The notes under the pieces are model-generated. The model was not told where the DNA came from, did no database searches, and saw nothing but the letters and a program-made list of their open reading frames with translations. Below, piece by piece: positions 31,811-36,362 of a DNA stretch of 37,161 bases; position 1 is the first letter of the stretch, and the number at the start of each line of letters is the position of its first letter. The DNA is from a virus, in IMG/VR virus record IMGVR_UViG_3300007516_000055, positions 1 to 37,161 of that record; one strand, given 5' to 3'. The position numbers were made by a program, and so were the translations under genes.

Positions 31811-31856
31811 ATTGCCGGGCTTCCGAAACCCATCACGTTCACTTCCCGGAGACCTA

Positions 31857-32543
31857 ATGTTAAACACGCAACCGATCGAAAAGCATTCCTCAAGCAACGG
31901 CAATTTTCTTGATGTTGTTGAAGTCTTTTACACTATACAAGGTGAAGGCCCACATACAGGTGACCGAGCAGTATTTGTCAGACTTGCAGGGTGCAATCTA
32001 AAATGCCCGAGCTGTGATACTGATTACACAAGCAACCGAGTCACCTCAAAAATAGAAGTTCTGGTCAATCAGGTAATAAAACTTCAGCCTTCGCCTTGCC
32101 TTGTGGTTATTACCGGAGGCGAACCTTTTCGTCAAAATATAACACCCTTCATCAATATGCTTATTTCGTTTGGGTATTGGGTGCAAATTGAAACAAACGG
32201 TTCTCTCGCACCTTCGCCCCAGCTTGATGATTCAGTCATTGTTGTTTGCAGTCCAAAAACAGGTAAAGTCAACCCGCAAATAGAAAAGCGAGCTGACTGC
32301 TATAAGTACGTCATGGGTTGTGAAAGCGTTGACCCTGAAGATGGCTTACCAGTGCTGGCACTTAACCACAAGTGCCGTCCACGGGTGGCGCGCCCACCCG
32401 AAGGAATGCATGTATATTTACAACCATTGGATTCAAAAAACATTGCGCAAAATCACAAACACGTTGCCGCGGTTGTTGAAAGCTGTAAAAAATACGGTCA
32501 CACCCTACAACTACAAATTCAAAAAATAATAGGAGTTGATTAA
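31857..32543 (+). CDS. queE: 7-carboxy-7-deazaguanine synthase (radical SAM)
   Basis: A 228-residue protein. CNLKCPSC (Cys46, Cys50, Cys53) binds the radical-SAM iron-sulfur cluster, QGEGPHTG (28-35) is the QueE substrate loop and VITGGEP (84-90) is the SAM-binding motif. It converts 6-carboxy-tetrahydropterin to CDG, the second-last step to preQ0. I chose the ATG with GGAG five bases before; an upstream TTG at 31812 would overlap the hairpin. No queD is seen next to it. Stop is directly followed by the next start. Confidence 0.9.
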   Translation: MLNTQPIEKHSSSNGNFLDVVEVFYTIQGEGPHTGDRAVFVRLAGCNLKCPSCDTDYTSNRVTSKIEVLVNQVIKLQPSPCLVVITGGEPFRQNITPFINMLISFGYWVQIETNGSLAPSPQLDDSVIVVCSPKTGKVNPQIEKRADCYKYVMGCESVDPEDGLPVLALNHKCRPRVARPPEGMHVYLQPLDSKNIAQNHKHVAAVVESCKKYGHTLQLQIQKIIGVD

Positions 32544-33956
32544 ATGTGCGCAATAGTAGGAGCACTAATTCATCGCATTGACACAGAATTAAAAGCCGCC
32601 AAGGCAGATAGAATTCTCGGTCACATTTTAAATGAAAGTCGAGCGCGCGGTCGCGACGGTTTTGGGTTTCGTGGGCTGTATAAGAACGAAGAATTTTGCT
32701 ACGCGCGTGAAGGGTTTGATATCACTAGGCATGAAACCGGAGGTATTGAATTTCCCCACCTTTATAAGTATGGTCAGTCACTGGTAGTAGTTAACGCGGT
32801 GTTTAATTTTAGAGCGGAACCGACAACTGAATTCGTTCCAAATAAGCAATATAGTGATCAGCAGCCATACACCTGTAAGGATTGGACAATTGTTCACAAC
32901 GGTACAATCGCAAATGATAAAGAACTTCGGACAGGTGAGCTCGCCACCAGCATTGATAGTGCGGCTATCGCGGAATCTTTATCGTTACAATCCCCGCTAT
33001 TCGATAATCAAGATCAGTCTTACATAGCGTTCAGGGAAACCATTAAGAGGCTTGTCGGTAGTTATGCAATCCTGGCACAGCATGATAGGCACCCGAATCA
33101 AATGTTAGTGGCTGCAAATTATCGGCCCGTTTGGTATGCGATAAATGAGCTTGGGGTTTTCTTTGCTAGTAGCAAAGATTATTTTCCAAAGGAATTAACA
33201 CCCGTTGCATTAACCCCGTATAGTACTGCTCATTTTGCATATGAAAGTGGAGAACTGGTTGTTCGGATTGATACTTTAAGGGTAAGGAAAGCGGGCGCCA
33301 CAAAGACTCTTGTGATTGCTAGTGGGGGGTTAGATAGTACGGTAGCAGCTTCGCAGCTTGTTGCCGAAGGTCATGAGGTTAGTCTTCTTCATTTTCTTTA
33401 TGGTTGTAGATCGGAACGCCAGGAAGTTTTTGCAATTAATGCTATCGGAGAAAAAATGGGGATAAATGTCATAGAGTTTCCTTTAAACATTTACGACCCG
33501 AGTGATTCGCGGCTTTTTGATAAAGACTCTGAAATAGCAGGGGGAGAGGAAGGTGCTGAGTTCGCTCACGAATGGGTGCCCGCGAGAAATCTTGTCATGC
33601 TAAGTGTGGCAACCGCATACGCCGAGGCCAACAATTTCGAATATATTGCTCTCGGTAATAATCTTGAAGAAGCAGGTGCTTACCCTGACAATGAGCCTGA
33701 CTTTATTCGCAGGTTTAATGAGCTGCTTCCGTTTGCTGTTGGTGATGGTAAACGGGTTGAAGTCCTCATGCCTGTTGGGGATTTAATGAAACACGAAATT
33801 GTCAAACTTGGTTTAAAAAATAATGCACCATTAGAATTGACTTGGAGTTGCTATAAAAACGGTGAGTACCATTGCGGAAAGTGTGGACCTTGTTTTATGC
33901 GAAAAACTGCATTTCATATTAACCACACCTTTGACCCAATAGTTTACGAAAATTAA
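32544..33956 (+). CDS. GAT-QueC fusion: glutaminase plus preQ0 synthase
   Basis: A 470-residue two-domain protein. N-terminal ~245 residues are a class II glutamine amidotransferase: Cys2 (catalytic after Met removal), SRARGRDGFG (32-41) and IVHNGTIAN (116-124). From about 253 the QueC domain follows: ASGGLDSTVAA (259-269) P-loop, EWVPARNLV (343-351) and the zinc site Cys436, Cys444, Cys447, Cys450. QueC turns CDG into preQ0 with ATP and ammonia. The fused glutaminase can supply the ammonia and, as in Gat-QueC of phage 9g, may help form archaeosine in DNA. Confidence 0.9.
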   Translation: MCAIVGALIHRIDTELKAAKADRILGHILNESRARGRDGFGFRGLYKNEEFCYAREGFDITRHETGGIEFPHLYKYGQSLVVVNAVFNFRAEPTTEFVPNKQYSDQQPYTCKDWTIVHNGTIANDKELRTGELATSIDSAAIAESLSLQSPLFDNQDQSYIAFRETIKRLVGSYAILAQHDRHPNQMLVAANYRPVWYAINELGVFFASSKDYFPKELTPVALTPYSTAHFAYESGELVVRIDTLRVRKAGATKTLVIASGGLDSTVAASQLVAEGHEVSLLHFLYGCRSERQEVFAINAIGEKMGINVIEFPLNIYDPSDSRLFDKDSEIAGGEEGAEFAHEWVPARNLVMLSVATAYAEANNFEYIALGNNLEEAGAYPDNEPDFIRRFNELLPFAVGDGKRVEVLMPVGDLMKHEIVKLGLKNNAPLELTWSCYKNGEYHCGKCGPCFMRKTAFHINHTFDPIVYEN

Positions 33957-33969
33957 TCCAGGACCTGAA

Positions 33970-34854
33970 ATGAAAATTAAATTAACAAACACGCAAGTTC
34001 AAGACTTAGCCCTACTCCACATTCCGTACTTTCGAAATAAAGACATGCTTCGTTGCTACCCTATACCGAGGGGCGGGGTTCCTGCTGCTTTCGTTTTGAG
34101 TACTGTATTCAAAGTCATTATTGTAGACACTCCCGATGAAGCTGATTTCTTTTTTGATGACATTATCGATAGCGGGGCAACTAAGAAAAAATGGTGCGAG
34201 CAGTATCCAGGAAAAGATTTCTTAGCTTTGGTTGACAAAACCGACCCGTCAAACCCTTACAATGGGAAGTGGATTGTTTTTCCATGGGAAGGGGATGCTG
34301 AGTCAGGTATCGAGGACAACATTATAAGAATTATTCAGTACGCGGGAGACGATCCAACCCGTGAGGGTTTGCAAGAAACGCCAACGCGCGTAGCTAAAGC
34401 TCTTTTACATTGGTTTAAAGGGTATGATGAAGACCCGAAAGACATTTTAAAAGTTTTTGAGGATGGTGGCGAAGACTATGATCAAATGGTTGTGGTTAAA
34501 GATATTCCAATCTATAGCAAGTGTGAGCACCACATGGCGGACATTTTTGGCACAGCGACAGTCGCATATATTCCCGACGGGAAAATTGTAGGGCTGTCAA
34601 AGTTGTCACGGCTGGTTGACATATACGCGCGCCGGTTACAGGTGCAAGAAAGACTAACGTATCAAATTTCAAAAGCGTTGGAGGATAACCTAAACCCGAA
34701 AGGGGTTGGAGTAATGATTAAGGCGCGCCATATGTGCATGGAATCACGCGGGATTTGTCAACAGGGTCACCACACTATAACAACGTCCCTCACTGGGGCT
34801 TTCCGTGATGAATCTGAAACTCGTTCTGAGTTCATGGCTATTGCAAGGAATTAA
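33970..34854 (+). CDS. folE: Phosphoribosyltransferase - GTP cyclohydrolase I fusion
   Basis: A 294-residue protein in two parts. Residues about 1-100 look like a type I phosphoribosyltransferase: YPIPRGGVPAA (30-40) and the PRPP loop FFDDIIDSGAT (61-71). Residues about 113-294 are GTP cyclohydrolase I: REGLQETPTRVAKAL, CEHHM (185-189; zinc Cys185 and His188, catalytic His187), VGLSKLSRLVDIYARRLQVQ (207-226) and HMCMESRG (Cys256). GCYH-I makes dihydroneopterin triphosphate from GTP, the first step to preQ0. The PRT part could salvage guanine or xanthine to feed GTP. The fusion is unusual; both motif sets look intact. Confidence 0.88.
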   Translation: MKIKLTNTQVQDLALLHIPYFRNKDMLRCYPIPRGGVPAAFVLSTVFKVIIVDTPDEADFFFDDIIDSGATKKKWCEQYPGKDFLALVDKTDPSNPYNGKWIVFPWEGDAESGIEDNIIRIIQYAGDDPTREGLQETPTRVAKALLHWFKGYDEDPKDILKVFEDGGEDYDQMVVVKDIPIYSKCEHHMADIFGTATVAYIPDGKIVGLSKLSRLVDIYARRLQVQERLTYQISKALEDNLNPKGVGVMIKARHMCMESRGICQQGHHTITTSLTGAFRDESETRSEFMAIARN

Positions 34855-35441: not shown

Positions 35442-36362
35442 GTGTTCATCTATATTGCGGCACTGCATTCGAACGGCTATAAGCATTCGAATCGATACTT
35501 GAAACTTAATGAGCACGAGCAAGATATAGTCGACAATGGGTTGCCCCACCTGCTTGAGTCATACCATTACATTCATAAAGATGTTTTTGTAAATGCAATC
35601 AGGGAGAGAAATGATAAAATATTTCTCGACTCGGGAGCCTTCTCTGCGTTTACATTGGGGGTTGATTTAGACCTTCCGACATATTGTGATTATATAAAAA
35701 GAAACGATGATATAATTAGAAAGGAAGACGGTATTTTGATGGCGTCGGTTCTTGACGGTATTGGTGACGCTCAGCTCACTTATGACAACCAGTTAGCTAT
35801 GGAAGCCAAAGGGGTCAGACCGTTACCCTGCTTTCATGCTGGTGAGGATGAGCGATATTTAGAATGGTATATTAAGAATTATGACTATATAACACTTGGA
35901 GGAATGGTAGGGGCTAGTCCAAAACAACTAATGATATGGCTTGACCGAATTTGGGACAAGTACCTCACTGACGGTAGTGGCAACCCGCGTCTAAAAGTTC
36001 ATGGGTTTGGTATTACTGCAATTCCAATCATGGAGCGATACCCGTGGTGGAGTTGTGACTCGTCATCCTGGATTCAATCAGCAGCGTTCGGAAGTGTAAT
36101 CACTCCTGAATTTGGACCGCTATCAGTATCCGAAAAGTCCCCAAGCCGTCACGACGCTGGACAGCATGTTGAAAACTTGCCTAGCATTATGCAAAGCAAA
36201 GTCTTTACAATGTTTGAAAAGCAGGGGTTCAATTTTGACAGGTTGTCAAAAGTTTACGAATCCCGAGCTGTGTATAACCTTTGGGCGTTTACAGAAATTA
36301 ATAAACAAATGGACGCCGGGAATCCAAATAAATTTAAAAGCGAACAGCAGGAGCTTTTTTAA
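35442..36362 (+). CDS. dpdA: DNA guanine transglycosylase-like protein (DpdA family)
   Basis: A 306-residue TIM-barrel protein related to tRNA-guanine transglycosylase. FLDSGAFSAF (61-70, Asp63), ASVLDGIGDA (101-110, Asp105), GGMVGAS, KVHGFGITA (185-193) and WWSCDSSSW (202-210, Asp206) are DpdA signature motifs. It exchanges guanine in DNA for preQ0. The C-terminal zinc-binding CxCxxC of tRNA-acting TGTs is absent, as in phage DpdA. GTG start with GGGGAG ten bases before; the next gene overlaps as TAATG. It makes the DNA-modification pathway complete except for QueD. Confidence 0.88.
   Translation: MFIYIAALHSNGYKHSNRYLKLNEHEQDIVDNGLPHLLESYHYIHKDVFVNAIRERNDKIFLDSGAFSAFTLGVDLDLPTYCDYIKRNDDIIRKEDGILMASVLDGIGDAQLTYDNQLAMEAKGVRPLPCFHAGEDERYLEWYIKNYDYITLGGMVGASPKQLMIWLDRIWDKYLTDGSGNPRLKVHGFGITAIPIMERYPWWSCDSSSWIQSAAFGSVITPEFGPLSVSEKSPSRHDAGQHVENLPSIMQSKVFTMFEKQGFNFDRLSKVYESRAVYNLWAFTEINKQMDAGNPNKFKSEQQELF

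Follow-up and report, generated by a model that had tools for sequence, protein, structure and literature searches.

Phages that rewrite guanine in their DNA release one free guanine for every modified base and spend GTP on its replacement, and the literature covered here does not address how this is paid for. A gene of such a phage brings the question to a single locus: its GTP cyclohydrolase I (FolE) is preceded by an additional domain with the motifs of a phosphoribosyltransferase (PRT). What is this domain, and what could it do next to FolE? The gene lies near the end of the window, the whole stretch of DNA analysed in this study, which comprises 37,161 nucleotides (positions 1 to 37,161 of IMG/VR virus record IMGVR_UViG_3300007516_000055).

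The PRT-FolE gene (33970-34854, + strand, as are all features of the window described here) is a single ORF of 294 amino acids with an ATG start and without internal stop. It is part of a 7-deazaguanine operon with the order QueE, Gat-QueC, PRT-FolE, DpdA. QueE is located at 31812-32543 (PHROG 2076, E 1.1e-53), its actual start probably being the ATG at 31857. Gat-QueC, a glutamine amidotransferase fused to QueC, follows at 32544-33956 (PF06508, E 1.3e-53; PF13537; PHROG 10428), and the DNA guanine transglycosylase DpdA is found at 35442-36362 (PHROG 887, E 1.5e-81). FolE, QueE, QueC and DpdA occur together, as is characteristic of phage 7-deazaguanine DNA-modification clusters. Since the replacement of QueC by Gat-QueC goes along with dG+ in the DNA of phage 9g (PMC6884629), dG+ is by analogy the likely product of the operon. 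QueD, a usual but not strictly defining member of such clusters, was not found within the 37 kb window, a fragment of the phage genome; it may be supplied by the host or encoded beyond this fragment. In every close relative examined, QueD lies between QueC and PRT-FolE, just before the PRT-FolE gene; in the window the gap between Gat-QueC and PRT-FolE (33956-33970) measures 13 nt.

Concerning the C-terminal part of the protein, residues 114-291 (34309-34842) match PF01227 (E 5e-70; 235 bits, cut-off 27) and, above its cut-off, the NCBIfam model TIGR00063 (218.7 bits, cut-off 181.6). Residues 185-188 (34522-34533) form the motif CEHH, which comprises FolE zinc ligands and the active-site motif, and C256 (34735-34737) is the third zinc ligand. 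The zinc ligands C185, H188 and C256 as well as H187 and H254 are invariant in 24 homologues. Judged by its sequence, this part is a complete GTP cyclohydrolase I. It has the same full domain and zinc ligands as the enzymes of TIGR00063 and PF01227, from which the window protein differs in its extra N-terminal PRT.

A Pfam search with the N-terminus of the window protein itself gave no match; the assignment is based on profiles of the family and on the fold. Residues 60-109 give a match (E 1e-6) with PHROG 8995 ('phosphoribosyl transferase'), a family that detects 25 of 27 PRT sequences, fused and stand-alone; PF00156 of Pfam is matched by 19 of 27 relatives of the domain. When a profile of 21 fused domains was searched against the PDB, the best match was XGPRT (E 2.2e-9), and only phosphoribosyltransferases were found at E < 0.001. 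The AlphaFold2 model of the domain alone (pLDDT 95.9, pTM 0.87) aligns in VIA-align with E. coli XGPRT (4jit_D) over 108 of 110 residues (Z 12.1, rmsd 2.5 A), the best matches being XGPRTs. Taken together, profiles and model identify residues 1-107 (33970-34290) as a compact PRT domain of XGPRT (Gpt) type without the flexible loop II. The sequence-only reading had described a single protein with a PRT in front of a full GTP cyclohydrolase I and its zinc ligands. This description is borne out by the uninterrupted ORF, by the profile matches of both parts and by the fold, and the motifs PIPRGGVP (residues 31-38) and DDIIDSGAT (residues 63-71) lie where they had been placed.

Alignment with Yersinia XGPRT shows which ligand residues are retained. 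The PPi-loop motif PRGG (residues 33-36, 34066-34077) aligns with S36-R37-G38-G39, R34-G35-G36 corresponding to R37-G38-G39. In the PRPP motif DDIIDSGAT (34156-34182), D63-D64 correspond to D88-D89, D67 to D92 and T71 to T96; its homologue in B. anthracis HPRT, loop III, has the sequence EDIIDSGLT (PMC6783271). K90 (34237-34239) aligns with K115 of the purine pocket, and the stretch WIVFPWE (residues 101-107, 34270-34290) with W134 to D140, so that W101, I102, P105, W106 and E107 correspond to W134, I135, P138, W139 and D140. All purine-pocket residues are thus present (K90, W101, I102 and E107, with Glu for Asp). Among 33 distinct fused domains, D63, G69 and P105 are kept in all, D64, D67, K90, W106 and E107 in 32, the GG of the PPi loop in 32 and its arginine in 28; each of R34, G35, G36, D63, D64, D67, T71, K90, W101, P105, W106 and E107 is kept in at least 28. 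The same ligand residues from R34 to E107 are each found in at least 83 of 89 stand-alone domains, except for the lysine at the position of K90 (73 of 89). The domain thereby resembles the E. coli and Yersinia XGPRTs in its fold, in RGG and DDxxD[ST]GxT, in K115, W134-I135 and P138-W139 and in an acidic residue at position 140.

It differs from these enzymes in size (about 110 residues, as compared to about 150), in its fusion to FolE, in being encoded by a phage and in the missing loop II. Only 29 residues separate the arginine of RGG from the first aspartate of the PRPP motif in the window protein, as compared to 51 in XGPRT, and the spacing is 23-32 in 34 of 38 fused copies, by which loop II is missing. 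Most stand-alone relatives lack it as well; a longer loop is kept by a minority of them (L066, L069, L073, L075, L077, L078, L079, phiST and StAshley). Flexible loop II is described as a feature of all HPRTs that serves as a lid over the active site during catalysis (PMC6783271). Because it is missing, PRT activity cannot be assumed, and for the same reason we file the domain as XGPRT-derived only and not as an XGPRT enzyme.

The same N-terminus is present on other phage FolE proteins. We found the fusion at 35 IMG/VR loci and in 33 GenBank phage records at a protein cover of at least 80%, and FolE is the only fusion partner seen for the PRT domain. Carriers include the Queuovirinae NP1, PaMx25, Quinobequin-P09 and VpKK5, and Sphingomonas phage MMDA13. 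That a frameshift or mis-assembly joined two genes has practically no chance of being true, being ruled out, as is an origin by chance, by the 35 IMG/VR loci and by the independently sequenced GenBank phages. The GenBank record of PaMx25 would speak for such an artefact, as it annotates, instead of the fused gene, a hypothetical protein and a FolE of reduced length; yet the fused reading frame runs over 300 codons there without a stop, and hence the annotation is at fault. In this record (L184, NC_041953.1, 2899-3801) the FolE start is annotated too late and the hypothetical protein is called in another frame. In cellular genomes the fused PRT has at least seven relatives; three or more of these are on contigs that also carry preQ0 genes and are possibly viral. 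A Smithella MAG contig (L171) carries the PRT-FolE fusion with QueC, a QueF-like gene and DpdA, and an Abditibacteriota MAG contig (L172) carries it with QueD and QueE; both are probably viral contigs or prophages inside bacterial bins.

The domain also exists as a separate gene. Searches with stand-alone PRT queries only, whose seeds were taken from preQ0 clusters and bias the sample in that direction, yielded 80 viral-contig loci, of which 74 have at least one preQ0 or DpdA gene within 9 kb. At this distance FolE is present in 64 of the 80 loci, QueE in 62, QueD in 57, QueC in 45 and a DpdA-type gene in 50; FolE often directly abuts the PRT gene. FolE is matched in only 393 of 50,697 GenBank phage records. 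The pathway gene nearest to the stand-alone PRT is FolE in 40 of 59 loci, either upstream or downstream, and lies at 100 nt or less in 32. Gene order varies: QueD, QueE, PRT, FolE, DpdA, QueF in immuto; QueE, PRT, QueD, FolE in BUCT-ZZ01; FolE, PRT in StAshley, flanked by genes for ribonucleotide reductase (RNR) and dNMP kinase; and in phiST the PRT in one block with FolE-QueE-QueD in another.

Where a check was possible, genomes with a PRT nearly always have DpdA; among them are 23 of 25 FolE-seeded records with PRT, in which it belongs to PHROG 887. No PRT match was obtained in 27 of 32 phage records checked that have FolE and DpdA. DpdA thus occurs both with and without PRT in the FolE-seeded sample, and for this reason its co-occurrence alone does not prove guanine recycling. 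In an unsystematic sample, PRT was not seen in any phage with DpdA but without FolE. That loop-bearing PRTs are confined to DpdA-less phages was considered and is ruled out, since divergent DpdA-like genes are present in phiST, StAshley, L069, L073, L075 and L077. Those of StAshley (STASHLEY_00090, L178:6975-7775; iterated profile E 1.7e-6) and phiST (CGPG_00065, L179:7601-8380; iterated profile E 6.8e-10) encode unannotated divergent proteins; they were missed by the standard family. A Pfam TGT search was too insensitive for all of these genomes.

A tree of PRT domains has a branch (support 70, from few columns) with every fused copy on the same side, which is compatible with a single fusion event. 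FolEs with and without a fused PRT are intermixed in the FolE tree, the fused label requiring 14 changes, 3 of them forced by well-supported branches; this would fit one fusion followed by repeated loss. At L019:6001-6921 the PRT part has neither the RGG nor the DDxxDSG motif, FolE is intact, and this FolE groups with PRT-less FolEs. The locus looks like a stage of PRT-domain loss, and with its motifs decayed beside such a FolE it indicates that the domain is dispensable in some phages. Over unsaturated pairs, dN/dS of the PRT part is 0.04-0.29, i.e. the domain is under purifying selection. The fused genes of L010 and L013 have PRT parts that are 97% identical and FolE parts that are 81% identical (synonymous differences 0.32 and 0.67), which points to recombination where the two domains meet.

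What does a domain with conserved ligand residues and no lid do in front of FolE? Tentatively, and with slightly less than an even chance of being right, we propose a purine PRT through which the guanine released by DpdA goes back into the GMP/GTP pool drained by FolE. DpdA is a base-exchange enzyme (transglycosylase), and one guanine leaves per modification. The PRT-FolE protein would then combine two enzymatic functions within a phage operon for the modification of DNA with 7-deazaguanine (probably dG+). The N-terminal domain, of XGPRT-type descent, would bind PRPP and a 6-oxopurine, most likely guanine, the leaving base of the exchange in DNA, and convert it to GMP; kinases would convert GMP to GTP, which would feed the FolE domain. 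Removal of free guanine would moreover pull the DpdA exchange forward. As loop II is missing, the domain would probably be a slow PRT, or its lid would be supplied elsewhere in the FolE oligomer. From sequence, fold, conserved ligand residues, linkage to FolE, preQ0 genes and DpdA, and purifying selection, we infer the catalysis, the base, the flux and the benefit.

The sequence-only reading had arrived at a similar recycling loop, of which a part can be kept. It is reasonable to connect purine salvage with the modification of DNA by 7-deazaguanines, because the domain is of purine-PRT type, has conserved PRPP and purine contacts and tracks FolE/preQ0/DpdA clusters; co-occurrence with DpdA by itself is no proof of guanine recycling. 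Channelling of guanine into the GTP supply by the fused protein has to be given up in its direct form, which is impossible, because the PRT would make GMP, FolE uses GTP, and two kinase steps lie between. Against recycling stand the missing loop II, the decay at L019 and the many phages with FolE and DpdA that have no PRT. It also counts against it that Gpt or Hpt of the host could perform guanine salvage instead.

Two rivals deserve serious consideration. The domain could be a non-catalytic sensor. It would bind PRPP, guanine nucleotides or ppGpp and set the activity of FolE, and GTP would enter the route to preQ0 only if purines are plentiful. Nearly invariant ligand residues without loop II are what one would expect of a domain turned into a sensor; FolE is favoured as a neighbour and is the sole fusion partner seen; and regulators of PRT fold exist, PyrR being among the fold neighbours of our model. 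Still, we consider regulation rather unlikely, as loop-bearing relatives (L073, L077, L079, L082, L086) are found in the same kind of gene clusters, stand-alone copies often do not adjoin FolE, and the fused domain is repeatedly missing from close FolE relatives.

The substrate could also be a 7-deazaguanine. A PRT joining PRPP with CDG, preQ0 or G+ would yield a 7-deazaguanine nucleotide for storage, as a DpdA-independent dNTP precursor or as an intermediate of Gat-QueC. There is a precedent in TubE of the tubercidin pathway, a CDG-specific PRT encoded in a FolE-QueD-QueE cluster (PMC6112128). TubE resembles our case by description in this gene setting and is set apart by being a stand-alone protein of 194 aa from a bacterial antibiotic pathway, whereas the window PRT is fused to FolE and encoded by a phage. 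Moreover, a modified-dGTP route was considered for DpdA-less phages by Hutinet 2019 (PMC6884629), StAshley has RNR and dNMP kinase genes on the flanks of FolE-PRT, and the nearest neighbours of the PRT are synthesis genes rather than DpdA. The sequence-only reading had recognised the PRT motifs and had missed both this rival substrate and the absence of loop II. We nevertheless hold a 7-deazaguanine substrate to be unlikely: DpdA needs the free base and is present in nearly every PRT genome that could be checked; the PRT is fused to FolE and not to QueE or QueC; and ribonucleotide reductase was not seen among the annotated genes of the window. D67 aligns with D92 of XGPRT, which faces N7 of the purine, and its retention fits a true purine and speaks mildly against a 7-deazapurine. 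Finally, a structural relic that binds nothing and only aids folding, oligomerisation or stability of FolE, as the degenerate copy of L019 beside an intact FolE and the many related FolEs without the domain might suggest, is very improbable given that ligand residues are conserved across domains only about 40% identical, that the PRT part is under purifying selection and that many phages keep the PRT next to FolE as a gene of its own.

Phage dG+/preQ0 clusters, among them those of 9g, NP1 and Quinobequin-P09, have the same QueE, Gat-QueC, FolE and DpdA in one operon (PMC6884629), but published descriptions read their FolE as ordinary FolE. Neither phosphoribosyl activity nor a PRT domain is mentioned in the main text of Hutinet 2019 (PMC6884629). 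The MMDA13 paper lists the PRT-FolE protein as FolE and does not mention a PRT domain in its FolE passages (PMC7472734), and the annotation of PHROG 8995 notes neither a link to 7-deazaguanine modification nor the fusion to FolE. The full-text literature searched, which excluded the 2023 follow-up 10.1093/nar/gkad657, contains no report of a FolE-linked PRT domain. This suggests that PRT-FolE is a variant of known families, an XGPRT-type PRT and FolE, whose fusion and linkage were apparently overlooked. The finding corrects the annotation of many phage 'FolE' proteins, and the recurrence of the PRT with FolE across many phage groups, fused or adjoining, points to purine balancing or to an unreported biosynthetic step. 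If active, the domain would be a purine PRT without loop II and as such would bear on how catalysis works in the superfamily. The further-reaching proposal that a loop-less, largely phage-borne mini-PRT is a regular part of phage 7-deazaguanine modification, carrying out an unreported step in which either a 7-deazaguanine base or the guanine released by DpdA is phosphoribosylated without loop II and with a lid from the FolE oligomer or another partner, is possible but doubtful.

Two further kinds of genes were observed near stand-alone PRTs. A TGT-like protein of about 400 aa is encoded at L096:2978-4201 (PF01702, E 9.5e-4) and also at L097, L098, L099, L100 and L105; its sole PHROG match is a family of unknown function, and it is a candidate for a DpdA2-type enzyme. 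The commonest other neighbour is a MazG-like nucleotide pyrophosphohydrolase (PHROG 671), present at L126:7198-7824 and at 41 further loci.
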